A DNA stretch of 51,060 bases from Gammaproteobacteria bacterium (lineage in GTDB: Bacteria; Pseudomonadota; Gammaproteobacteria; DSM-19610), in assembly GCA_030621785.1 (NCBI GenBank), contig JAUXGZ010000004.1:1-51060 (forward strand), written 5' to 3'. The number at the start of each line of letters is the position of its first letter. The first letter of the stretch is position 1. The position numbers and the translations under genes are program-made. Of this stretch, positions 1 through 12,419 are shown piece after piece. The notes below the pieces were generated by a model. It was given only the letters and a program-made list of their open reading frames with translations. It searched no databases and was not told the origin of the DNA.

Positions 1-182
1 CGATTCATGCGCTGACCAACTGGGTGATCGATACAGCGCTGGCCCAGCTGCTGCGTTGGCAGGATGAGGGCTATGACCTTTGCATGGCCATTAATATTTC
101 TACGCGGAATCTGGTCGACATCCTTATCGATGAAGCCCGGTTATCGGGGAGGGAGATGCGAAACTATCTTCCTACACAATAA
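1..182 (+). pseudogene. Truncated EAL-domain (c-di-GMP phosphodiesterase) remnant
   Basis: An open frame enters from the left edge (codons in phase with base 3) and stops with TAA at 180-182. Its 59 residues read like the middle of an EAL domain: a helix with WVID and ALAQLLRW, then the strand AINISTRNLVD, equivalent to the 'VNLSARNL' strand of c-di-GMP phosphodiesterases. After that strand the expected helix and the EITES-type metal-binding motif are missing, and the frame ends within 25 unrelated residues. The last 19 bases overlap the 3' end of the convergent ugd gene. I read it as the broken 3' part of a signalling gene whose upstream part lies outside the window. A frameshift or a sequencing error is an alternative. 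Confidence 0.6.
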
Positions 183-1468
183 TAATTGAAGCCGATCTCC
201 CGCATGAAATCCGGTTCGTACACGTTCCTGAGGTCGACAAATACCGGTGTGCGCATATCGTTCAGCACCCGCTGCAGGTCCAGTCCACGATACTGATTCC
301 ACTCGGTCATTAAAACCGTAGCATCCGCGTCCTTCATGGCCTGGTATACGTCGTCCACAAAGGTAATATTTTCAGACAGCAGCTGTCGGGCTGCGTGCAT
401 CCCCTGCGGGTCGTGGGCGACGATTTTTGCGCCTTTGTCCAGTAGCGGGGGTAAAATCGCCAGTGCCGGAGAATCCCGCATATCATCGGTTTCCGGTTTG
501 AAAGTCAGTCCCAGTACGGCGATCGTTTTACCCGCTTCGTCACCGCCCAGTGCTTCGCGTATCTTGCCGACCATGCGAGCTTTCTGCGCGGCATTGACCT
601 CGACTACAGACTCCACAATACGACAGCTGGCACCGTGTTCCTGGGCAATTCTGATCAGGGCCAGGGTGTCTTTTGGAAAACAGGACCCGCCATAGCCCGG
701 CCCGGGATGCAAAAACTTTTTCCCGATTCGGCCATCCAGACCCATGCCCCGCGAAACCGCGTGTACATCGGCGCCCACTTTTTCGCAAAGTTGGGAGATC
801 TCGTTAATAAAACTGATTTTGGTCGCCAGAAAGGCATTCGCCGCATACTTGATCAGCTCGGCACTTTCCAGGTTGGTTGTGAAAATCGGCGCCTCGATCA
901 GGTTGATCGGCCGGTATAATTCCCTGAGCAGCTTCTCTGCACGCGTGCTCTCGACTCCCAGGACCACGCGATCCGGACGCATGAAGTCACTGATGGCGGC
1001 GCCTTCACGCAGAAATTCCGGGTTGGACGCTACGTCGAAATCGGCTTGCGGGTTTTCTTCCCGGATAATGCGCTCGACCTGTCGGGCCGTGCCCACGGGT
1101 ACGGTGGATTTATCCACAATCACCGTGTAATTCTTCAGCAAGCGGGCAATCTGTTTCGCTGCATCGTATACATAGCCGAGATCCGCATGCCCGTCGCCGC
1201 GGCGCGTAGGGGTGCCGACTGCAATAAATACCAGGTCCGCGTCGGGAACCGCTGCGTCAAAATTGGTGCTGAACGACAAACGGCCGGCCTGCACATTGCG
1301 TTCGACCAGCTCATCCAGGCCGGGCTCGTAGATGGGGATGTCGCCGGCGTTCAGCCGGTCAATCTTGTTCTGGTCAATATCGACGCAGGTGACATGGGCG
1401 CCAAATTCCGAAAAACAGGCTCCCGAAACCAGGCCTACATAGCCCGAACCGACTATTACAACATTCAT
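164..1468 (-). CDS. ugd: UDP-glucose 6-dehydrogenase
   Basis: This cytoplasmic enzyme oxidises UDP-glucose to UDP-glucuronate with two NAD+. The 434 residues start with a Rossmann motif (GSGYVGLVSG, residues 7-16), then a central helical domain with the K207/N211 pair in ELIKYAANAF. The catalytic cysteine is C263 in PGYGGSCFPKDT. A C-terminal UDP-binding domain follows, with GLTFKPETDDMRDSP. Length matches the bacterial UDP-glucose/GDP-mannose dehydrogenase family. It lies 37 bases downstream of a UDP-glucuronate epimerase on the same strand, so the pair can make UDP-glucuronate and UDP-galacturonate for exopolysaccharide, LPS or glycolipid. GDP-mannose dehydrogenase is less likely given the close match to Ugd/TuaD motifs. 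Confidence 0.93.
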   Translation of the reverse strand: MNVVIVGSGYVGLVSGACFSEFGAHVTCVDIDQNKIDRLNAGDIPIYEPGLDELVERNVQAGRLSFSTNFDAAVPDADLVFIAVGTPTRRGDGHADLGYVYDAAKQIARLLKNYTVIVDKSTVPVGTARQVERIIREENPQADFDVASNPEFLREGAAISDFMRPDRVVLGVESTRAEKLLRELYRPINLIEAPIFTTNLESAELIKYAANAFLATKISFINEISQLCEKVGADVHAVSRGMGLDGRIGKKFLHPGPGYGGSCFPKDTLALIRIAQEHGASCRIVESVVEVNAAQKARMVGKIREALGGDEAGKTIAVLGLTFKPETDDMRDSPALAILPPLLDKGAKIVAHDPQGMHAARQLLSENITFVDDVYQAMKDADATVLMTEWNQYRGLDLQRVLNDMRTPVFVDLRNVYEPDFMREIGFNYYCVGR

Positions 1469-1505
1469 GTGCTATTTCCCCGTTTCCGCTGTCTAGCGGT
1501 TTGCC

Positions 1506-2513
1506 CTAAAGCTGGTGATAGGCCCGGTACCAGTCAACGAACGCCTTGATACCCCGGTCCAGAGGCGTGGTCGGCCTGAAGCCCACCGCTGCATCCAGCG
1601 CATCGATATCCGCGCAGGTTGCCACGACATCGCCATTTTGCATGCCCAGCAGGTTTTTTTCCGCTTTTTTTCCCAACGCGGACTCAATAGTTTCAATAAA
1701 TTGCATCAGTTCCACCGGTTCATTGTTGCCGATGTTATAAATCCGGTACGGTGCATAACTGGTTGCGGGATCCGGTGCTGCCGTATCAAATGCAGGATCC
1801 GCTTCGGCAAGCTGATCGATGATCCGAACCACGCCTTCGACGATATCGTCGATACAGGTAAAATCACGCTGCATCCTGCCTTCATTGAATACGTTAATCG
1901 GCTCCCCGCGCAAAATTGCGCCGGCAAACAGGGAAGGCGACATATCCGGCCTGCCCCATGGACCATAGACGGTAAAGAAGCGCAGACCGGTTGTCGGCAG
2001 TTTGTACAGATGACTGTAGGTATGTGCCATCAGTTCACTGGCTTTTTTGGTCGCCGCGTACAGGCTCACCGGGTGGTCCACATTGTGATGTACGCTGAAT
2101 GGCATGTGCGTGTTGGCGCCGTATACGCTTGAACTGCTTGCATAAACCAGGTGTTCCACACCGTTGTGTCGACAGCCTTCGAGGATGTTCGCAAACCCGA
2201 CCAGGTTGCTGTCGATATAGGCATGCGGATTTTCCAGCGAGTAGCGTACGCCGGCCTGGGCCGCAAGGTTCATGACACGATTGAACTGTTGTTCCTCGAA
2301 CAGGGCGGCCATCGCTTCCCGGTCGGCCATATCCATTTTGATAAATACGAATCGATCAAAATGTTCAATCTGTGCCAGGCGGTCACGCTTTAACTGCACA
2401 TCATAGTAATCGTTGAGGTTGTCGATGCCGACGACCTCATCGCCGCGTTCCAGCAGCTTTTTTGCCAGGTGCATGCCGATAAAACCAGCTGCGCCGGTTA
2501 CCAGTATTTTCAT
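1506..2513 (-). CDS. UDP-glucuronate 4-epimerase (NAD-dependent SDR)
   Basis: Extended short-chain dehydrogenase of 335 residues that interconverts UDP-glucuronate and UDP-galacturonate. It begins with the NAD-binding motif TGAAGFIG (residues 6-13). SSSSVYG (127-132) and the catalytic YAATK (Y152, K156) follow, then [14 protein letters not shown], which is typical of UDP-GlcA epimerases rather than GalE. The open frame runs 22 codons further upstream. I chose the ATG at 2513 because the Rossmann strand starts there and an AGGTGG Shine-Dalgarno sits just upstream. It is followed by ugd on the same strand, whose product is its substrate. UDP-glucose 4-epimerase or another nucleotide-sugar epimerase cannot be excluded by sequence alone. 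Confidence 0.85.
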
Positions 2514-2643
2514 GATTTCCACCTGATGAAGACAAGCTTTTTTGATGTAAGCGATGACCAGATCATGATGAAAGTGCACCTCGGAGGTTCCATGCTAAAT
2601 GGCGGGGTATGACGGCGCGCGCAGACCTGCGGACCGAAACCCG

Positions 2644-3597
2644 TCAGCGAAATATACCACGTCGATACAGGCGCCATAAAAATCCCCATGCAAATATCAG
2701 AGGATGACGCCGTAACCGATCGGGGACTTCTATCGACTGACCCGAGTGGCGCTCCAGTTTCCAGATAAGGTAATCGAGCGCCCCCGTGAAGGTGAACAGG
2801 GTCTTGGTCAGTCTGGCTATGGAGAGCAATTTGCCCTGCAGGCCGCGGATTTTCCAGCCAAAGCGGTTCACCAGTCGCGATGCGGGGGTAATCTGTACCT
2901 GGTAGTGCTCGGATGCCTGTATTTTCAGCGGCCAGGCGAGCAATGGCGTCGCTGCAGCGGTTACCTGGTGATAGTATTCGCTGTAGTGCCTGACCAACTC
3001 CTCGGCGCGCCCGGGCGTCTCGGGGCGTAACTCTGATCCGTAACTGAGCGCCAGTCCACCGGTCCACAGTGACAGCAGTGAGCCCTGTTCGGGCAGGGCG
3101 GGCAACGTGCGGTCGAGAAAGGTGAGCACAGACTGTCGCAGACACTTTTCGACGCACGCCCGGGCATGATCATCGCGCGACCACGCAATCGCCGTTGGCT
3201 GGCTTAAACGGCCCCAGAGGTACGAGTGATACCAGTCACTGGATGTTCCTCGTAACAGGTCCCGGCAGGACAGTACGCCATACTTGCTGCGTACTGTGCG
3301 TTGCTCAAAGAGAAACTCTGCGTAGAATACATTCGGCGGTAGCGTGTGGTTCAGGAAGGTCCTTGACAGATTGTCGTTGGCCTTCCTGTAGCTGTCGACG
3401 ATCACGTAGAGGTCGACCAGGCCCTCGTACGGGTCACCACCGCGCAGGCAGGATCCATAGAATAGTACAGCGACCAGGTTCGTGCCGTATTGACGGTGCA
3501 ATGTATCTGTTATGTGGACCAGGGCGGGGTGCCCGGCAGTCGGAGACAGTGCGCGGATGGTGTCGCTTAATGCCTGCTGGTGAGAGTTTTGTTGCAT
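2644..3597 (-). CDS. Tam41/Mmp37-like phosphatidate cytidylyltransferase-type protein
   Basis: A 317-residue protein with the pattern of Tam41-type CDP-DAG synthases. It has a nucleotidyltransferase head FYGSC (46-50), a metal-binding strand VDLYVIVD (61-68), KYGVLSCRDL (105-114), WYHSYLWGRLSQP (122-134) and a LALSYGSELRPE segment matching the family's 'LSY-GD-R' motif. Tam41 makes CDP-diacylglycerol from CTP and phosphatidate in mitochondria. Here the gene follows a lipid kinase by 7 bases (AGGAAG Shine-Dalgarno inside the kinase end), so kinase product to CDP-lipid is a natural two-step reading. Whether the substrate is phosphatidate or ceramide-1-phosphate is unknown. The first acidic motif (VDL for the usual LDL) differs slightly from the canonical form. 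The C-terminal 50 residues are basic and hydrophobic, suggesting peripheral membrane attachment. Confidence 0.6.
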   Translation of the reverse strand: MQQNSHQQALSDTIRALSPTAGHPALVHITDTLHRQYGTNLVAVLFYGSCLRGGDPYEGLVDLYVIVDSYRKANDNLSRTFLNHTLPPNVFYAEFLFEQRTVRSKYGVLSCRDLLRGTSSDWYHSYLWGRLSQPTAIAWSRDDHARACVEKCLRQSVLTFLDRTLPALPEQGSLLSLWTGGLALSYGSELRPETPGRAEELVRHYSEYYHQVTAAATPLLAWPLKIQASEHYQVQITPASRLVNRFGWKIRGLQGKLLSIARLTKTLFTFTGALDYLIWKLERHSGQSIEVPDRLRRHPLIFAWGFLWRLYRRGIFR

Positions 3598-3604
3598 ACG
3601 GGCG

Positions 3605-4642
3605 TTAACTTCCTATGCGCAGGAATTCGAGTTCACCACCGTTATCGACAATGATCGGGTGCTCGTTGTCGGCGTGATAGATCTCCCCGTCGATAGCAAA
3701 GCTTCCGTCCAGCCACAGGCGGATCTGTGTTGCGTTGGCACTATAGTAGCCGTTCTCGCGGCTCATATGTTTGCATCGGCGTCCGCGCAGCATACCTGGA
3801 ATCACCCGTAACAGTTTGTTGGTCGGTTTCTGCAGCCAGGTGCAGTGGAGAGGGGCGTCTTCGTCACCCCAGTAGGGGTGGAAACCCAGGAACAGACGTT
3901 CCAGTGAACTAATGAGTAACAGGTTGAGTTCACGGATCGAGGTGTCCGTGCCACTGTCCAGCTCGACACGCGTTGGCTGCGCTGTAGTGAAGACCGGATC
4001 CTGTCGCAGCATGCCCCATATGGCGCGTATGGTTGTGACGGCCGGACCGAATTCGTTGGTCAGTCCAAGGGTGTGAACACTACCCTGGCAGTATTCCATG
4101 CCACGGGTTATGGAACCGGTGCCGAAGAACATGCCGTAGCAGGCTGCTTTCAGGGGCGAGTGTCGCACTCGCAACACCGGACGCACCAGTCGCTCGATGT
4201 TGTCGTGGCCACTTTCAGCCCAGTGGACCAGGTGTCCAATATTTTTTTTCAGGCGACCACGCATACCGATATCGGCCGCATTCATGTTGGTTGTACCACC
4301 CGGAAGCAGTACGATGGACGGCATCTGACTGAAAGGGCGCATGCTCAGCAGTTGAGTCAATACCCTCGCAACAGTTCCGTCGCCGCCGTTTATCGCCAGC
4401 ACGTTGACCCCGGCGGCGGCAAACTGTTCCAGTGCCCTGTCGGTATCGTCCTCGCCGGAGAGTACGCAATGGTGAATTGCGGGGTGATTTGCGATAATAC
4501 GTTCCAACTCGGGCAACTGTGAGCGGTTGCGCCGGGACCTCGGGTTGCTGACGATCCCGATCCGGGGGCGGTTGGTAATTTCTGCAGGAATGCTCAAATC
4601 GGGGCGCTGGTAATCTGGTGTGTCATTGTTGCACAATCCCAA
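3605..4642 (-). CDS. Lipid kinase of the DAG kinase / sphingosine-ceramide kinase fold
   Basis: 345 residues with the catalytic signature of the DAG-kinase superfamily: a nucleotide-binding strand RIGIVSNPRSRRNR (27-40), the active-site loop NGGDGT (85-90), a PGGTTNM turn (114-120), and the C-terminal FAIDGEI strand that completes the lid domain. Bacterial relatives phosphorylate diacylglycerol (DgkB, YegS) or ceramide (CpgB of Caulobacter). Given the neighbouring acyltransferase, acyl-AMP ligase and reductase, ceramide kinase is an attractive guess but not shown. The start is uncertain. No in-frame ATG precedes the domain, and the best candidate is TTG at 4642, directly next to the ATG of the divergent phosphoesterase gene and without a clear Shine-Dalgarno. 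Likely co-transcribed with the Tam41-like gene. Confidence 0.8.
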   Translation of the reverse strand: MGLCNNDTPDYQRPDLSIPAEITNRPRIGIVSNPRSRRNRSQLPELERIIANHPAIHHCVLSGEDDTDRALEQFAAAGVNVLAINGGDGTVARVLTQLLSMRPFSQMPSIVLLPGGTTNMNAADIGMRGRLKKNIGHLVHWAESGHDNIERLVRPVLRVRHSPLKAACYGMFFGTGSITRGMEYCQGSVHTLGLTNEFGPAVTTIRAIWGMLRQDPVFTTAQPTRVELDSGTDTSIRELNLLLISSLERLFLGFHPYWGDEDAPLHCTWLQKPTNKLLRVIPGMLRGRRCKHMSRENGYYSANATQIRLWLDGSFAIDGEIYHADNEHPIIVDNGGELEFLRIGS

Positions 4643-5599
4643 ATGAATACACGCCAGTCAACAACTATTGTCGGTAATCCATTGACAGAGAATCACACCA
4701 AACCATTCTGCTTCGCTCATCTGTCCGATCCGCATCTGTCCACCTTGCAGGGCGTACGCCCGGGGCAACTGATGAATAAGCGGGTGCTGGGGTATCTCTC
4801 CTGGCTCCGCCGGCGACGCGCAGAACACCGTATGGAGGTGCTGGAAGCGCTGCAGCGTGATCTGCAGCAGATGCATCCGGCGCATATTGTGGTGACCGGT
4901 GACCTTACCCATATCGGCCTGCCAGACGAATTCCTGCAAGCGCGCCGCTGGCTGGACTCGATCGGTAGCCCGCAGGATGTAACCGTTATACCCGGCAATC
5001 ATGATACCTATGTACACCTGCCGTGGAAGGACGGGTTTGCCCACTGGCTGCCATATATGCAGTCGGATGATGCCGGCAAGCTGTTTCCCGGTCTGCGCAT
5101 TCGCGAGTCGGTTGCCTTTATCAGTCTGTCCACCGCGGTTCCCAGCGCGCCATTTCTGGCTACCGGCAGTCTGGGTGCGCAGCAGCTCGAAAAACTGGCG
5201 CTGTTGCTGGATGAGACCGGCCGACGCGGTTTGTGCCGCGTGGTGCTGATACACCATCCACCGGTTCCCGGCAGCGAGAAATGGCGCAAGCGGCTTACCG
5301 ACGGACGGCAGTTCTGTGACGTGGTTGCGCGCCACGGTGCGGAACTTGTGTTGCACGGGCACGGGCATCGTACCCAGGAGAATTTTATCGAGGCGGAGGG
5401 TGTGCGTATACCGGTTTCAGGTATGCCATCCGCCTCGGCTACAGGGCTCAGGCCAGGAAGGCAGGCACAGTATAGTCTCTACCGTGTACGCAGGCAGGAA
5501 CCTGGCTGGCTTATCGATGTGGCGGTGCGCGGCTATGACGCCGATCGTGACGCATTTACCCCGCAAGCGAGGCGCAAGCCGGTTCTTCCCGACCGCTGA
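4643..5599 (+). CDS. Calcineurin-like metallophosphoesterase
   Basis: 318 residues containing the full set of metallophosphoesterase metal ligands in order: SDPH (28-31), GDLTH (86-90), GNHD (118-121), IHHPP (203-207) and HGHGH (238-242). No signal peptide or membrane segment is visible, so it is probably cytoplasmic. Members of this class cleave phosphomonoesters, phosphodiesters or CDP-type pyrophosphates (as in LpxH, which splits UDP-diacylglucosamine). In this setting it could remove a phosphate, or hydrolyse a CDP-lipid, in the lipid pathway. It is transcribed away from the lipid kinase, and the two start codons are adjacent. No Shine-Dalgarno precedes the ATG. An in-frame TTG at 4682 is a possible alternative, still upstream of the first motif. 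Confidence 0.85.
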   Translation: MNTRQSTTIVGNPLTENHTKPFCFAHLSDPHLSTLQGVRPGQLMNKRVLGYLSWLRRRRAEHRMEVLEALQRDLQQMHPAHIVVTGDLTHIGLPDEFLQARRWLDSIGSPQDVTVIPGNHDTYVHLPWKDGFAHWLPYMQSDDAGKLFPGLRIRESVAFISLSTAVPSAPFLATGSLGAQQLEKLALLLDETGRRGLCRVVLIHHPPVPGSEKWRKRLTDGRQFCDVVARHGAELVLHGHGHRTQENFIEAEGVRIPVSGMPSASATGLRPGRQAQYSLYRVRRQEPGWLIDVAVRGYDADRDAFTPQARRKPVLPDR

Positions 5600-5681
5600 C
5601 ATATTTCTGCCGGATGTTGATGCCATAAGCCCCGATATTTGCGGTCAGTACCCAAAGCGGCCGGGTATAAACGGGCGGTTT

Positions 5682-6506
5682 CTACGGGGGCGCGTTCATC
5701 CGGTTACTGGTCATTTTGCGTTGCACGATATCGTGGTCCGAAATGGAATCGACGTCGACGGCTGCCTCGGCCCAGGGTAGTAGCACAGTGCCGGCACGCA
5801 CTCCCAGTTTGTTCGACAGATTATCCAGCGCTTCGCGCAGGGTCAGCCGGTGAAGCAGGTATTTGAGTACGGATGCCCAGCCGAGTGCCCGGATTACCTT
5901 GAACGGATTTTTGCGTTCCTGTTCCACCTTGCGCCAGAACCTGGCGGCATCACGTCCTTCAGGCGTCATGAAAGTAAACAGGTTGCAGCCGCAGTAGTCG
6001 CCTTCTTTAAAGTGCATGACGGTTTTCTTCATGTCCGGAAACGCTTGCCGCACAAGTTCGTAGGGTGCCAGTCCGGCTGCTACATCCAGATCGTGTACGC
6101 GGCTCTGGCGACAGAACTCATCGACAATTTCTGCGCTAAGCAAGGGGTGGTCGGCAGTCGTCAGCAGGATCGGTGTCCCGGCAGGGACCGTCTGCATGGC
6201 GTGCCAGGCACTGGTGCTTGGGGATGACTGCGGGGCTTGCCAGTCGACGTCGCCGGAATCGACCAGTGTGCGGATGGCACTCTGCGGGTCGAGTTGCTGC
6301 AGGTCCGGACCGGAGATGATCCTGCGGTCCACCTGTTGTGAGGCGGCCAGTGTATCGAGTACGCGCTGCAGCATCGCCTTGCCATCGATTTCGATCATGG
6401 CCTTGCAGCCGGCATTGGAGCGCTGTACCAGCGGGTCAGCCGCACTGCGCTGGCCGGCAAGTACAATGGCGGTAAATGGTGTTCGCTGCGAGTCGGGCTG
6501 GTTCAT
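5682..6506 (-). CDS. MobA-like NTP transferase (candidate headgroup cytidylyltransferase)
   Basis: 274 residues of the GT-A/MobA-like nucleotidyltransferase fold. AIVLAGQR (13-20) and the lysine K35 in CKAMIEIDGKAML correspond to the usual LAGG-x-S-R...K signature, but the glycine-rich turn is altered and lengthened. The metal-binding acid is in LLTTADHPLL (114-123). A C-terminal extension of about 120 residues is rich in hydrophobic and basic residues. Relatives transfer CMP or GMP to a phosphorylated small molecule. From memory, a cytidylyltransferase of this type (CpgD) acts in Caulobacter anionic sphingolipid synthesis; this should be checked. The gene starts 7 bases after the stop of the acyltransferase gene upstream, so the two are one operon. 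The open frame extends 53 codons further, but ATG 6506 fits the fold. Confidence 0.7.
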   Translation of the reverse strand: MNQPDSQRTPFTAIVLAGQRSAADPLVQRSNAGCKAMIEIDGKAMLQRVLDTLAASQQVDRRIISGPDLQQLDPQSAIRTLVDSGDVDWQAPQSSPSTSAWHAMQTVPAGTPILLTTADHPLLSAEIVDEFCRQSRVHDLDVAAGLAPYELVRQAFPDMKKTVMHFKEGDYCGCNLFTFMTPEGRDAARFWRKVEQERKNPFKVIRALGWASVLKYLLHRLTLREALDNLSNKLGVRAGTVLLPWAEAAVDVDSISDHDIVQRKMTSNRMNAPP

Positions 6507-6513
6507 ATAATGG

Positions 6514-7638
6514 TTAGTAGAGGTCTTTCTGGTAGATGCGGTAGCGCTTGTAGACCGAGCCGCCGCAAGTCTCGATGAGGTTGCGTACGCCCTGATTGTT
6601 CTCCAGTATCCAGGATAGTTCAACGTCCATGATACCGCGTTTCTGCAGTGCTTCGCGCGCTGCATCGATGACCAGAAAAGCCAGCGCAGGGCCCAGTCGC
6701 GTTTGCTGGTATTCCTTGATTACGCCCATCAGCGGAATGCGTGCGGTGGTCGGATAACGAACCTTGAGCCCCCACAGCAGCCTGAGCCAGCCGAACGGGA
6801 GCAACTTCCCGTCCAGTTGTCGGGTGATTTCATGGATATTGGGTAATGCTACGGTCATGGCAACTGCCTTGCCGTCGATTTCCGCGATCTGGACAAATTC
6901 GTCGTCGACCAGCAGCGTCAGCATTTCTCCGATATCGGTAAATTCCGCTTCCGTGAACGGCACAAACCCCCAGTTGGCGGACCAGGCGTCGTTGAAGATA
7001 TTCCGCAGGGTCGTCAGCTCCTGTTCGAGCTTGTTACGCCGAAGCTTGCGCAGTTGTACCTGGTTTCTGGCGCGTTCGAGCAGCTTCCGCATTATCCGGG
7101 GGGGCTCAAAGTCCGGTTTGATCAGGTATGCGAGGAAGTTTTGCGCCGACCGGTAGCCGCAACTCTCGATACGATGCTCATAGTAGGTGCGGCTGTGCCC
7201 CATCATGATGCGTGGCGGGGTGTTGAAACCTTCGATCAGCAGGCCTGCCTCCTCATTAATGGAGAGGTTGAAGGGGCCGATCACCCGTTTCATACCCTGT
7301 TCACGGAGCCAGCGTTCCGCCGTCTGGCACAGCGCACTGAAGACGTCGGGGTCATCCTCGGCTTCCAGCATGCCGAAATAGCCGGTATCGTCCTGGTAGA
7401 TATCCAGGTGTAACTGGTCGACCTGTGCGCTGATCCGTCCCACCGGCCGGCCGTCGCGCCAGGCGATCCAGGCTTGCCAGCGGGCGTGTTGAAAGAACGG
7501 ATTTTTCTTTGTTAATCTTTGTTTCTGTTCGAAAAGCAGAGGAGGGACCCAGTTTGGATCCTGTTTGTAGATGGGCCAGGGAACCTGGATGAAGGTATCG
7601 AGCTCGTGGCGGCTAGTGACTGGTTCAACGCTTAGCAT
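6514..7638 (-). CDS. GNAT-fold N-acyltransferase, bacterial ceramide synthase (bCerS) type
   Basis: About 374 residues. The N-terminal half carries VPPLLFEQKQRL, NPFFQHA and GRPVGRISAQVD, then GPFNLSINEEAGLLIEGF and PPRIMMGHSRTYYEH. The C-terminal half ends with a GNAT-like ELSWILENNQGVRNLIE...YRIYQK. This two-part pattern belongs to a family long annotated as acetyltransferases, to which I believe the Caulobacter ceramide synthase bCerS belongs. That enzyme N-acylates 3-ketosphinganine. The adjacent acyl-AMP ligase and CerR-like reductase agree with this. It is followed within 7 bases by the MobA-like transferase. The start is not settled: ATG 7638 is preferred over the frame opening at 7722, but its Shine-Dalgarno is weak. 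Other N-acyltransfer reactions remain possible. Confidence 0.72.
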   Translation of the reverse strand: MLSVEPVTSRHELDTFIQVPWPIYKQDPNWVPPLLFEQKQRLTKKNPFFQHARWQAWIAWRDGRPVGRISAQVDQLHLDIYQDDTGYFGMLEAEDDPDVFSALCQTAERWLREQGMKRVIGPFNLSINEEAGLLIEGFNTPPRIMMGHSRTYYEHRIESCGYRSAQNFLAYLIKPDFEPPRIMRKLLERARNQVQLRKLRRNKLEQELTTLRNIFNDAWSANWGFVPFTEAEFTDIGEMLTLLVDDEFVQIAEIDGKAVAMTVALPNIHEITRQLDGKLLPFGWLRLLWGLKVRYPTTARIPLMGVIKEYQQTRLGPALAFLVIDAAREALQKRGIMDVELSWILENNQGVRNLIETCGGSVYKRYRIYQKDLY

Positions 7639-8170
7639 GAGTTTGACTGTTATCCCGGCGGCCGGACTGGATCCTGCGGAGCAGGCTCGATGATACCGGG
7701 CTGGTCTGTCAGCGACCAGCAATGAAAAAAAGCGTGCATTCAGGGCGTTTAAATATTAGAATACGCGCATGTACTGAAATACAGTTGATGTCTTGAGTTG
7801 GCCCGAAGATTGCGATTTTGGCCAATGTATTGACTTCGAATCCGGTTGCGGAGTTGTTGCGTCAATGACAACTTTTACTGTCTCAATCAGGCGACAGTCC
7901 GCTGAATACTGTGGTTTCCAGTGAAAATTTGGTGAAAAAGTGTTGTGTTTTCGTCTTATTGGATGAATAATGCACCTCCGACTAGTAATGGAGTACTGTA
8001 CTGCCAAGTTCGTTGTAAATATGCAACGCTTTATCAGGACCAGCTTGGCAGATGGAATTCGTGGTTAGCAGGTCAACCGGCTTCCAGGGTATGAAGTAGT
8101 TGAACTTTTTCGGGGTGTTTCTGCCTTTTTGGCTGAAACCGAAATTTGTACAAACCAAAGGGAAAGTCTC
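7639..8170. other. Long AT-rich divergent intergenic region
   Basis: This 532-base stretch separates the divergent acyltransferase and acyl-AMP ligase genes and is visibly richer in A+T than its flanks. No convincing gene was found. It contains a perfect 7-base inverted repeat around 7700-7720 and an AGTAC-T-GTACT palindrome at 7992-8002. It also has several weak promoter-like pairs, such as TTGTGT and AATAAT with a 17-base spacer near 7942-7970. It probably holds the promoters and operators for both halves of the lipid locus. Confidence 0.5.
7700..7720. promoter_or_regulatory. Inverted repeat upstream of the acyltransferase gene
   Basis: GCTGGTC (7700-7706) and GACCAGC (7714-7720) form perfect 7-base arms around a 7-base spacer, about 60 bases upstream of the minus-strand acyltransferase start. 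The half-sites resemble FadR half-sites, but FadR arms are almost contiguous, so I do not assign a regulator. It could be an operator or a small leader hairpin. Confidence 0.35.
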
Positions 8171-9949
8171 TTGGGCATAGAATCGACACCAACTTTACAC
8201 AATTTGCCGTTTCGTCCCGCTGACTTCACCAGTCTTGCTGAAGCGCTGGACTACGCGGCGCAGGGTGACACGGGCGCAAACTTCTACACTGGTAGGGGCG
8301 AGTTGTACGAGGTTCTCCCTTACGCAAAATTGCGCAAGGAATCTATCGCGCTGGCACGCAAGTTGCGGGGTATGGGTTTGCAGAAGGGCGACCGGGTTGC
8401 CCTGGTAGCTGAAACCACGCCGCACTTCCTGCGCTTCTTTTTCGCCTGTCAGTATGCGGGGCTGGTCCCTGTTTCACTGCCGGCATCCGTGAACCTTGGC
8501 GGGCACACTGTGTACGTAACCCAGTTACGTGGATTGCTGGAGTGCAGCCAGGCAGCCGTTGCCATGGCGCCGACCGGTTACCTGCCTTTCCTCACCGAGG
8601 CGGGTGAGGGGCTTGGGCTCAAATTGATCGGTGACCCGGAAATATTCGATGCTTTGCCGGAGCCGGAGATTGAATTCGATCCGATTCAGCCGGAAGACAT
8701 TGCTTACATCCAGTACACCTCGGGAAGTACACGTTTCCCGCGTGGCGTGATGATCGAGCAGCGTGCTGTCATGAGCAACCTGGCCGGAATTATTCGCCAT
8801 GGTGTCAAGATGGGTTCCGGCGACCGCTGTTGCTCCTGGTTGCCCTTCTACCATGATATGGGCCTGGTCGGGCTGGTTCTGGTTCCCGTTGCGTCGCAGG
8901 TTTCGGTGGATTACCTCGATACTCGTGAGTTTGCCATGCGTCCGCGTCAGTGGTTGAACCTGATGACCAAGACGAAGGCAACGATTTCTTTCGGCCCTCC
9001 CTTTGGTTACGAGCTGTGTACGCGCAGGTTGCGGCCGGGTGAGGCATCCAAATACGATCTGAGTAACTGGCGCGTTGCCGGTGTTGGCGCGGAAATGATT
9101 CGTTCCGAGACCTTGACTCGTTTTGCCAAGGCACTGGAGCCGGCCGGTTTTGATGCAAAGGCCTTCCTGGCATGCTACGGCATGGCCGAGTGTTCACTGG
9201 CGATCAGTTTTGCGCCGCTGTTCGAAGGTCACTCCACCGACTGTGTCGACGGGGATCACCATTCCGATCACCAGGAAGCATTGCCGATTCATCTGTCGGA
9301 GAATCCCGGTCGTGCACGCTGTTTTGTGGAGTGCGGTCAGCCGCTGCCGGAATACGAGGTTGAAATTCGCAACGATGATGGCAAGGTATTGCCGGATCGT
9401 CAGAGCGGCGGTATTTATGTGCGTGGCCCGAGCGTCATGGCAGGATACTTCAATGCGCCTGAAGAGACGGCCGCTGCACTTTCCGATGATGGTTGGCTCA
9501 ATACCGGTGATATTGGCTACCGGGTCGATGGCAGTCTGATCATTACCGGGCGTAAAAAGGATCTTATTATCATCAATGGCCGTAACATCTGGCCACAGGA
9601 TCTGGAGTATCTGGCGGAGCATCAGTCGGAAGTGCGTATGGGTGATGCGCTGGCGTTCTCCGTGCCGAATCCGGGTGATGGCGAAGAGATTTGCATCCTG
9701 GTTGTACAGTGCCGCGAGACGGACCCGAATAAACGCGCAAACCTGATTACCCGTTTGAACAAACTGGTGCACCTGGAGCTTGGCATCGATGTCTATGTGG
9801 AGCTCGTGCCCCTGCATACGTTGCCACGTACTTCATCGGGCAAGTTGTCGCGTTCCAAGGCGCGCCAGAATTTCATAGAATCGCATGATTTGACGGGGCT
9901 TGTTACCGAGATGTCCGACCAGCTTCAGCTCCGGCGGAGTGCGGTATAG
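8171..9949 (+). CDS. Fatty acyl-AMP ligase / acyl-ACP synthetase (ANL superfamily)
   Basis: Adenylate-forming enzyme of about 592 residues that activates a fatty acid with ATP and passes it to an acyl carrier protein or CoA. Visible motifs are the ATP loop YTSGSTRFPRG, the WLPFYHDMGLVG helix typical of fatty acyl-AMP ligases, the YGMAE motif, GWLNTGDIGY, the hinge GRKKDLIIINGRNIWPQDLE and the C-terminal lysine in PRTSSGKLSR. Family features favour transfer to an ACP. Caulobacter ceramide synthesis needs such an acyl-ACP synthetase, so it may feed the bCerS-like enzyme. The frame opens at a TTG at 8129. I prefer TTG 8171 because AGGGA lies 7 bases before it; no ATG is available. A strong terminator follows. 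Confidence 0.88.
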   Translation: MGIESTPTLHNLPFRPADFTSLAEALDYAAQGDTGANFYTGRGELYEVLPYAKLRKESIALARKLRGMGLQKGDRVALVAETTPHFLRFFFACQYAGLVPVSLPASVNLGGHTVYVTQLRGLLECSQAAVAMAPTGYLPFLTEAGEGLGLKLIGDPEIFDALPEPEIEFDPIQPEDIAYIQYTSGSTRFPRGVMIEQRAVMSNLAGIIRHGVKMGSGDRCCSWLPFYHDMGLVGLVLVPVASQVSVDYLDTREFAMRPRQWLNLMTKTKATISFGPPFGYELCTRRLRPGEASKYDLSNWRVAGVGAEMIRSETLTRFAKALEPAGFDAKAFLACYGMAECSLAISFAPLFEGHSTDCVDGDHHSDHQEALPIHLSENPGRARCFVECGQPLPEYEVEIRNDDGKVLPDRQSGGIYVRGPSVMAGYFNAPEETAAALSDDGWLNTGDIGYRVDGSLIITGRKKDLIIINGRNIWPQDLEYLAEHQSEVRMGDALAFSVPNPGDGEEICILVVQCRETDPNKRANLITRLNKLVHLELGIDVYVELVPLHTLPRTSSGKLSRSKARQNFIESHDLTGLVTEMSDQLQLRRSAV

Positions 9950-9972
9950 TTGCCTGCAACATCTTGAAACAA

Positions 9973-9999
9973 ATAACCGGCCGAGGCCGGTTATTTTTT
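9973..9999 (+). terminator. Rho-independent terminator after the acyl-AMP ligase gene
   Basis: ATAACCGGC and GCCGGTTAT arms form a 9-base stem with a small loop, followed directly by a run of six T residues (9994-9999). It lies 24 bases after the ligase stop and separates that gene from the CerR-like gene, which therefore probably has its own promoter. Confidence 0.9.
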
Positions 10000-10048
10000 G
10001 CTCGACGGTTCTCACAGGTCACGCCGGCTAACATACGTTCCCGTTAAT

Positions 10049-10990
10049 ATGTCTGACCAGGTTGCAGTTACCGGTGCCACGGGATTTATCGGCCGGGTTG
10101 TTTGTCGCGCCCTGAAGGCCGATGGCTGGCGGGTGCGCGCATTGGCGCGTTCTGTGGCGGGAAGTCGGTTGCTGGAACCGGTGGTCGATGAGTGTATTCA
10201 GGGGCACCTGGAAGATGCCGACTCGCTGAACGCACTGGTCGATGGTTCCCATGCGGTTATTCACTGCGCAGGAACCGTCCGCGGTGTAACTCAGCAGCAT
10301 TTCGAGCGCGTAAACGTTAGCGGTACCGAGCAACTGGTTACCGTGCTCTCATCCCTGCAGTCACCACCAAAATTGCTGGCACTGTCGTCGCTTGCTGCGC
10401 GCGAACCGGCGTTGTCTTTTTATGCGGCCAGTAAACGAAAGGCTGAAAAGGTGCTGGAACAGCGCGCATCCCGACTGGACTGGGTTGCGTTGCGCCCGCC
10501 GGCAGTCTATGGACCCGGTGACCGGGAACTGCTGCCACTGTTTCGTCTCATGGCGAGGGGCGTAGCGCCGGTGCCCGGTCGCAGGGATGCGCGTTTTTCA
10601 ATGATCTATGTTGAAGACATTGCCCGACTGATCATTGCATGGTTGCGACAGGATACTGTGGCAAGCGGCGTGTACAGTATCCATGATGGTTATTCGGGTG
10701 GCTATGCATGGGATGACGTAGCGGCTGCTGTAGCCGGGATTTGTCAACACCCGGTACGCCTGTTGCCGGTACCCCTGGCTCTGCTATGGTTGCCGGCACA
10801 TCTGAATCGTCTTGCTGGTCGGGTGGCCAACTACATGCCCATGCTGACCCCCGGGAAGCTGCGCGAATTGCGCCACCCGGACTGGGTGTGTGACAACCGG
10901 GAGATTGCAGCGGTTCTGGACTGGCAACCGCAGGTGCAACTGCAGGAAGGGCTGCGTCGTACCCCCGGCTGGTGTCCGTTGCTGGATTAG
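10049..10990 (+). CDS. NAD(P)-dependent epimerase/reductase, CerR-like
   Basis: Extended short-chain dehydrogenase of 313 residues with TGATGFIG (8-15), a NADP-compatible ALARS strand end, SSLAA, and the catalytic YAASK (Y125, K129), followed by RPPAVYGPGD. It is not a standard sugar epimerase: the C-terminal substrate domain lacks the usual nucleotide-sugar motifs and is hydrophobic (LLPVPLALLWLPAHL). In Caulobacter a gene annotated this way, CerR, reduces the keto group of 3-keto-ceramide. With the bCerS-like and acyl-AMP ligase genes next door, the same role is plausible here. The frame opens at 9998, but ATG 10049 begins the Rossmann strand. It ends 4 bases from the convergent glcD-like gene. 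Hopanoid- or terpenoid-linked SDRs are alternatives. Confidence 0.75.
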   Translation: MSDQVAVTGATGFIGRVVCRALKADGWRVRALARSVAGSRLLEPVVDECIQGHLEDADSLNALVDGSHAVIHCAGTVRGVTQQHFERVNVSGTEQLVTVLSSLQSPPKLLALSSLAAREPALSFYAASKRKAEKVLEQRASRLDWVALRPPAVYGPGDRELLPLFRLMARGVAPVPGRRDARFSMIYVEDIARLIIAWLRQDTVASGVYSIHDGYSGGYAWDDVAAAVAGICQHPVRLLPVPLALLWLPAHLNRLAGRVANYMPMLTPGKLRELRHPDWVCDNREIAAVLDWQPQVQLQEGLRRTPGWCPLLD

Positions 10991-10994
10991 CGGA

Positions 10995-12419
10995 TTATGC
11001 GCCATCCATCGGTGGCAGGGTTTTGCCCGGATTCAGGATGCCGGCGGGGTCAAATTGTCGCTTGATGGCCCGCATCAGGTCCAGGCTGACCGGGTCGAGC
11101 TCGCGGGCAACCCAGTCCCGCTTGACCAGGCCGACGCCGTGTTCACCGGAAATGGTTCCATCCATGTCGAGCACGGTGGCGAAGACTTCTTCCAGGCAGG
11201 CGTCGACGTTTGCTTTCTGCTGCGGATCCTGTGGGTCGTAGAGCAGATTAACGTGCAGGTTACCGTTGCCTGCGTGGCCGAAATTCACAATGCGGATCGC
11301 ATATTTTTCGGAGAGCTGCTCGAGCCGGGCGACCAGTCCCGGCATCCGGGAGACCGGGACCACCACATCTTCGTTTATCTTTTTGGGCGCCACCCGGCGC
11401 AATGCCGGTGACAGCGACTTGCGCAGGTTCCAGAGTTCGTCTACTTCCCGTGCCGATTGTGCGACCCGAATATCGAGCAGACCCTTGTTGTTTGCGGCTA
11501 TGCAGACCTGTTCTGCCATCTGGTCCAGCTGGCTCTCCATGCCATCGACTTCAATCATGAGCACTGCACCGGCGCCTTCCGGGATATCGGCGGGTGTCTC
11601 TGTGCGAACCATGGCCAGCGCAGCACCGTCCATGAATTCCAGTGCGCAAGGTGTGACGGGCTGGGCCATGATATTGGCTACTGCCTGCGCGGCGTTGTGC
11701 ATGTCTGTGTAGAGAGCCCGCATGGTGCGTTTTGCCGGTTGCAGGGGGACCAGTTTCAGTGTGGCTTCTGTGATGATGGCCAGTGTGCCTTCGGAGCCGA
11801 TCAGCAGGCGAGTCAAATCGTAGCCCACCACGCCCTTGGTCGTACGCGTGCCGGTACGGATAGTGCGGCCGTCCCCGGTTACGGCTTTCAGTGCCAGCGT
11901 GTACTCCCTTGGAGTTCCGTATTTGACCGCCCGGGGTCCGGCAGAATTGTAGGCCAGATTTCCGCCTATGGTGCAGATGGCCGAGCTGGTTGGATCGGGG
12001 GGCCAGAAAAACCCCTGTTCGGCAGCGGCTTGCTGGACTGCCTGATTGGATGTGCCGGGTTGCACCACCATCAGGCGATTATCCCGGTCAATTTCCAGAA
12101 TGTGGTCCATGCGCTGCAGTGAAAGAATCACGGAATGCTCGTCGATGGGCACCGTTGCTCCGGTTGTGCCGGTGCCCTGACCGCGTGCGATGACCGGGAT
12201 CCGGTGCTGATTGCAGAGCTGGATAACGGAGCACACCGCCTGGTGGGATTCGGGTAACGCCACCGCCACCGGCTGGCCCTGCAGCGTGCTGTTGTCGTAG
12301 CCGTAGGAATGGCAGTCGGCCGGGTCGGTTAACAGCCCCTGTTCGCCGAGTACAGGTCGAAGTGATTGTATCAGTCGGGACAGTGACTCCTGGTCAGTCG
12401 TGTTCGGGGAGCGGGTCAA
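10995..12419 (-). CDS. FAD-linked 2-hydroxyacid dehydrogenase, GlcD/D-lactate dehydrogenase type
   Basis: 474-residue flavoenzyme of the VAO/PCMH family, oxidising a 2-hydroxy acid such as glycolate or D-lactate and passing electrons to quinone or a partner. The N-terminal FAD-binding domain shows ARGQGTGTTGATVP and PPDPTSSAICTIGGNLAYNS, then LIGSEGTLAIIT. The C-terminal FAD-oxidase domain ends in NFGHAGNGNLHVN, SGEHGVG and KRQFDPAGILNPGK. All are standard. The start is TTG 12419, overlapping the dolP stop codon (TTGA), which implies translational coupling to dolP. No glcE/glcF partners are present, so a single-subunit D-lactate or 2-hydroxyglutarate dehydrogenase role is as likely as glycolate oxidase. 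Confidence 0.85.
   Translation of the reverse strand: MTRSPNTTDQESLSRLIQSLRPVLGEQGLLTDPADCHSYGYDNSTLQGQPVAVALPESHQAVCSVIQLCNQHRIPVIARGQGTGTTGATVPIDEHSVILSLQRMDHILEIDRDNRLMVVQPGTSNQAVQQAAAEQGFFWPPDPTSSAICTIGGNLAYNSAGPRAVKYGTPREYTLALKAVTGDGRTIRTGTRTTKGVVGYDLTRLLIGSEGTLAIITEATLKLVPLQPAKRTMRALYTDMHNAAQAVANIMAQPVTPCALEFMDGAALAMVRTETPADIPEGAGAVLMIEVDGMESQLDQMAEQVCIAANNKGLLDIRVAQSAREVDELWNLRKSLSPALRRVAPKKINEDVVVPVSRMPGLVARLEQLSEKYAIRIVNFGHAGNGNLHVNLLYDPQDPQQKANVDACLEEVFATVLDMDGTISGEHGVGLVKRDWVARELDPVSLDLMRAIKRQFDPAGILNPGKTLPPMDGA

Follow-up and report, generated by a model that had tools for sequence, protein, structure and literature searches.

In Caulobacter crescentus, five ceramide genes and six genes for the head group are reported to direct the synthesis of anionic sphingolipids (PMC11324152). 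CpgB is a ceramide kinase (PMC10331486), cytidine diphosphate (CDP)-glycerate is produced by CpgD (PMC12275187), and CpgC catalyzes a pathway step of which the mechanism is called unidentified in a 2026 preprint (PMC13228409). For CC_1161, which a count of locus tags starting at CpgB (CC_1160) lets us equate with CCNA_01219/CpgC, a CDP-diacylglycerol (CDP-DAG) synthase InterPro domain and a possible role as maker of nucleoside diphosphate (NDP)-activated ceramide were noted (PMC11324152). According to the same paper, CC_1153 mutants still make ceramide phosphoglycerate (CPG), and Zymomonas, which is without CC_1159, was inferred to form CPG but not CPG2, the diphosphoglycerate lipid. Gammaproteobacterial spt accompanied by acyl carrier protein (ACP) and synthetase genes has already been reported (PMC9386255), as have Spt-like genes in 38 phyla in genomes from the Black Sea (PMC11334938). 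Here we describe a seven-gene block in a 51,060-nucleotide stretch from a gammaproteobacterium related to sulfur bacteria (contig JAUXGZ010000004.1; the whole stretch is called the window). This block probably belongs to a phosphosphingolipid locus that is divided in two, and its Tam41-like enzyme most likely activates ceramide-1-phosphate with cytidine triphosphate (CTP).

The window is one contig (C40) of a source genome of 2.15 Mb that is divided over 112 contigs and 75% complete. The genus was taken as Thiogranum, and one relative, G009, is a single contig rated 100%. Gene calls were based on bit scores as compared to family cut-offs (Pfam PF and NF profiles), and strands were checked. The seven genes that a first-pass annotation had described from the sequence alone were all found with scores above cut-off, on the strands given at that time:

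2644..3597, minus strand: Tam41-fold nucleotidyltransferase, equivalent of CpgC (CC_1161), proposed CTP:ceramide-1-phosphate cytidylyltransferase (Tam41_Mmp37, 24.2 bits, cut-off 24)
3605..4642, minus strand: DAGK-type lipid kinase with GGDGT, equivalent of the ceramide kinase CpgB (CC_1160) (DAGK_cat PF00781, 44.0 bits, cut-off 23.6)
4643..5599, plus strand: calcineurin-like metallophosphoesterase, equivalent of CC_1158 (Metallophos PF00149, 48.0 bits, cut-off 21.5)
5682..~6506, minus strand: MobA/CofC/IspD-fold nucleotidyltransferase, equivalent of CC_1153 (NTP_transf_3 PF12804, 50.9 bits, cut-off 27)
6514..7638, minus strand: GNAT-fold N-acyltransferase, equivalent of the bacterial ceramide synthase cerS/bCerS (CC_1154) (Acetyltransf_1 PF00583, 31.2 bits, cut-off 20.7)
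8129..9949, plus strand: fatty acyl-AMP ligase, equivalent of the acyl-ACP synthetase aasR (CC_1165) (NF006624, 801 bits, cut-off 600)
10049..10990, plus strand: atypical short-chain dehydrogenase, equivalent of cerR (CC_1164) (Epimerase PF01370, 94.0 bits, cut-off 20.9)

The grouping is not due to chance, since eight of 11 further same-genus genomes keep all seven genes in one shared order; of the other three, G001 and G008 have the stretch cut by a contig end, and G004 apparently has a split set.

The same annotation had read the block as a ceramide-type lipid locus, which is supported by the matched aasR, cerS and cerR places and by the genes found elsewhere in the genome. Spt, of which the absence had been named beforehand as refuting, is encoded on contig C77 (10749-11930; NF047599, 616 bits, cut-off 500) and has serine palmitoyltransferase 2x8u as its closest solved structure (PDB, E 7e-137), so the genome does not refute the earlier reading. 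An ACP, for which a search had been proposed, ends 4 bases upstream of spt; it is roughly 80 residues long and has a phosphopantetheine site (PF00550). No ACP was seen among the listed open reading frames of at least 30 residues in the gap at 7639-8128 of the window. Thus, all five bacterial ceramide pathway genes (Spt, AcpR, AasR, bCerS, CerR) are present in one genome, three in the window and acp and spt on C77. The latter contig additionally carries LptF, LptG, an ABC half-transporter and two ELM1-family genes, and another LptF/LptG pair is located on C64. In G009, roughly 23 kb separates cerR from spt, and about 15 kb the Tam41-like gene from acp. Spt lies in the stretches of four of the 11 relatives (G002, G005, G006, G009), each time with the ACP upstream, and was not found in the stretches taken from the others, several of which stop at a contig end.

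For the bCerS and CerR assignments, named clusters rather than Caulobacter sequences served as reference. The GNAT protein, earlier called bCerS-like, corresponds to the cerS place in clusters such as those of Nitrococcus and Pseudomonas luteola, shares 52-54% identity with the P. luteola, Nitrococcus and Desulfoprunum members, and is matched in 12 of 13 genomes of the genus (source genome counted); a PDB sequence search gave no meaningful match. The acyl-AMP ligase matches the aasR place in the Nitrococcus and P. luteola clusters (it is 52-57% identical to the members from P. luteola, Desulfoprunum and Nitrococcus). Likewise, the dehydrogenase, which had been proposed to be CerR-like, matches the cerR place in Nitrococcus and less completely in P. 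luteola, with 46-48% identity to the Nitrococcus and Desulfoprunum members located near acp and spt.

For the reactions in the source organism, we infer the following scheme. AasR would load the ACP, as in Caulobacter, and Spt would link serine with the acyl chain; bCerS and CerR would then complete ceramide as described for that organism. The kinase would convert ceramide to ceramide-1-phosphate, onto which the CpgC equivalent most likely moves cytidine monophosphate (CMP) from CTP, yielding CDP-ceramide. The head group (glycerate in Caulobacter) would then displace CMP through the action of a further enzyme, and the second LptF/LptG pair beside Spt probably takes the lipid toward the outer membrane.

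The Tam41-like protein has the Tam41 fold: residues 20-270 of 317 match Tam41, including the CTP complex 7ecd. With the Tam41 CDP-DAG synthases (6ig4, 7ecd) the fold is common across 222-224 residues, a single acid stands at the DxD position, and the K, RF..P and Y..[ED][LI]R elements of yeast Tam41 align with the window protein. However, identity is only 17-19%, and the window protein belongs to sphingolipid clusters. As a measure of distribution PF09139 was dropped (three matches in 274 genomes of the class, with the own gene missed, and none in 14 control genomes); our own Tam41-like profile matched 28 of 398 genomes, the source genome counted, one match being weak and broken. A 33-codon piece with an internal stop, matching the C-terminal end of this profile, occurs elsewhere in the source genome (C59:14242-14340).

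The first-pass annotation had regarded the combination with a Tam41-like enzyme as undescribed. This view was not sustained: the gene fills the published CC_1161/CpgC slot. The CpgB and CpgC equivalents are side by side in the window (2644-4642), and this slot is matched in P. luteola and in L113, where the order AasR, CerR, ACP, Spt, Tam41-like, kinase, CpgA-like, phosphoesterase, LptF/G, CerS, nucleotidyltransferase, CpgD-like equals the published one. In L113 a homolog of the metallophosphoesterase takes the CC_1158 slot. The named loci used for comparison are the best 80 of 585, of which 74 have 1.3 kb and 53 have 9 kb of upstream sequence. Kinase and Tam41-like genes adjoin in 68 of the 80 (63 of the 74), with carriers that, judged by record title, include Desulfobacterota, Nitrospirota, Nitrospinota, Calditrichota and Planctomycetota. 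In 20 further loci, taken from 19 of the 27 other genomes matched by our own profile plus G213 from the PF09139 search, the pair is adjacent in 18, and 14 of the 20 have Spt within the stretch examined (at most 20 kb). Homologs of the MobA-like nucleotidyltransferase (model pLDDT 93.1; nearest solved structure 2dpw) adjoin cerS in many of the named clusters. The clusters of P. luteola, Nitrosomonas europaea and Nitrococcus share the CerS-nucleotidyltransferase...kinase-Tam41 core, whereas the phosphoesterase is in none of these three stretches; CpgA is present in the first two and absent from that of Nitrococcus. As compared to the CC_1168-CC_1152 cluster of C. crescentus (PMC11324152), the window holds equivalents of aasR, cerR, cerS, CC_1161, CC_1160, CC_1158 and CC_1153, and C77 adds acp, spt and a second LptF/LptG pair. 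In Thiogranum, however, the genes are divided between two separated loci, no CpgA equivalent or full CpgD equivalent was found, and several ELM1-family genes are present.

Various points weigh against a Tam41-type activation of ceramide-1-phosphate. The CC_1161 assignment rests on the slot, on P. luteola and on the published domain note, not on the C. crescentus sequence. The Pfam score of the Tam41-like protein is only 0.2 bits over the cut-off, and the PF09139 search of genomes missed this very gene. Residues E189 and E193 of the protein are invariant, but Tam41 homology alone would fit CDP-DAG equally well. The kinase, with a GDGT that is invariant across 14 aligned sequences, retrieved only YegS/BmrU/DAG-type lipid kinases from the PDB (E 1e-4 to 1.3e-3), and its sequence does not separate a ceramide kinase from a DAG kinase. 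CDP-ceramide is a putative intermediate, and no enzyme using it was found here. The seeds of the CpgA-like and CpgD-like profiles were chosen by their position and family in other clusters, among them P. luteola and L113 (a seed of the CpgA-like profile), and not among Caulobacter proteins. Kinase and Tam41-like enzyme might instead serve normal glycerolipid synthesis, from DAG via phosphatidate to CDP-DAG, and merely neighbour the ceramide genes, since CDP-DAG is the product of Tam41 in yeast and in a Firmicutes bacterium and CpgB also phosphorylates DAG in vitro (PMC10331486). This is highly unlikely, as the two are repeatedly found with ceramide genes in different classes and phyla, a CdsA-type gene is present in all four Thiogranum genomes tested, and phosphatidate was reported to be unaltered by cpgB deletion in Caulobacter (PMC10331486). 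Somewhat less improbable, but still unlikely, is that the Tam41-like protein does not activate ceramide and that a nucleotide or glycerate unit is transferred otherwise, for example onto CPG. The Caulobacter data, as presented in PMC11324152, place CC_1161 only somewhere between kinase and CPG, and the preprint cited above leaves the CpgC mechanism unidentified (PMC13228409), whereas the fold match to Tam41, including its CTP complex, speaks against this alternative.

It is improbable that the genus makes full CPG2 by means of proteins unrelated to CpgA and CpgD, although the CC_1153 and CC_1158 equivalents, tied to CPG2 in Caulobacter, are retained and G011 and G012 give half-length CpgD-like matches. 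We searched 11 Thiogranum genomes (with G004, G007 and G216 left out) and six others. No CpgA-like match above 28 bits was obtained in the 11 (own genome 75% complete; G009 a single contig rated 100%), as compared to 426-665 bits in five of the six others (G213, G375, G368, G621, G290). CpgD-like matches stayed at or below 49.5 bits in nine of the 11; those in G011 and G012 reached 103-106 bits but cover just the first half, against 301-336 bits in the same five others; the sixth, G585, gave neither in the profile search. PF01066 has three members in each of five Thiogranum genomes, none close to the cluster. Presence, order, families and fold of the genes are established here, as is the lack of a CpgA-like match and of a full CpgD-like match in the 11 genomes. 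Of the 53 named loci that extend 9 kb upstream, 22 contain both genes, six CpgA only, none CpgD only, and 25 neither within the stretch; thus CpgA and CpgD tend to occur jointly, as one would predict for genes of the second phosphoglycerate, and Thiogranum falls among the short versions. Such a short form is not new in kind, since PMC11324152 infers CPG without CPG2 for Zymomonas. The Thiogranum gene set looks like a shorter version of the Caulobacter pathway, maybe with a different final head group. Retention of the CC_1153 and CC_1158 equivalents is not explained by the Caulobacter mutant data. The CpgD-like profile has CTP:phosphocholine cytidylyltransferase 1jyk as best match (E 1.5e-22); 4jd0, a structure published as resembling CpgD, gives E 3e-12. 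The CC_1153-like nucleotidyltransferase weakly matches 3-phospho-D-glycerate guanylyltransferase 7p97 (E 0.005). Given its retention without CpgA, we considered whether this enzyme makes the donor from which glycerate enters the first head group; the 7p97 match only hints at such a role, which is left open because CC_1153 mutants still make CPG.

If CDP-ceramide is indeed the product of the Tam41-like enzyme, a broader picture can be envisaged. A dedicated Tam41-family enzyme may make CDP-ceramide from Pseudomonadota to Nitrospirota, Desulfobacterota, Calditrichota and Planctomycetota, and lineages such as Thiogranum, in which CpgA and CpgD are missing, might use it for a different head group with the involvement of ELM1-family putative glycosyltransferases; this proposal is tentative. 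The term CDP-ceramide is absent from the open literature searched (5.39 million papers), although an NDP-activated ceramide is proposed in PMC11324152. Nothing on Thiogranum with sphingolipids was found in that literature, and among the 15 papers listed for Tam41 with sphingolipids, Tam41 appeared only in a yeast lipid paper. The confident Tam41 fold, the neighbouring kinase and the separate CdsA-type gene reduce the question of the CpgC mechanism to a single assay, and the gene sets without CpgA are natural test cases for the product of the core pair alone.

ELM1-family proteins are putative glycosyltransferases; a search of the open literature for the two terms together gave nothing. Each of five Thiogranum genomes has two to nine genes of this family (PF06258), some within sphingolipid loci, such as those on C77 (3783-5042 and 9234-10439), and among 14 control genomes only Caulobacter has a match. 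In the best 80 of 585 named loci, ELM1 occurs in 14 of 25 loci without CpgA and in three of 28 with CpgA when at least 9 kb upstream is available (Fisher p 0.0009), and in 10 of 18 versus three of 20 with 9 kb on both sides (p 0.016). Since these statistics ignore kinship, the association is only a lead. In whole genomes, ELM1 is missing from the CpgA-bearing G213 and G375 and present in the CpgA-bearing G368, G621 and G290, and the lead is weakened by the latter three. In L105 (3021-5882) an ELM1 gene precedes an ABC gene and AasR, where the published order has CC_1167; from this position we guess that CC_1167 is ELM1-like. The authors of the published cluster judged CC_1167 to be probably unrelated, yet a cofitness of 0.57 with spt is listed (PMC11324152).

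Some further observations concern the surroundings. Between the two loci of G009 are, at L045:1359-2276 and 4485-6452, a sulfotransferase-family gene and a repeated gene family starting with xHxVFIQTNHKQI, one member of which matches no Pfam family. On the left flank of the window (164-2579), UDP-glucose-dehydrogenase-like and epimerase genes adjoin the Tam41-like gene; G002, G005 and G009 have an ELM1 gene there. A public metagenome-assembled genome labelled Klebsiella pneumoniae, a label that is probably wrong, has a kinase-Tam41-ELM1-LptFG-ABC order (L158) resembling that of Thiogranum. On the right flank (10995-12419), a GlcD-like FAD oxidase gene lies beside cerR, as it does in all eight relatives with a stretch that extends past cerR.
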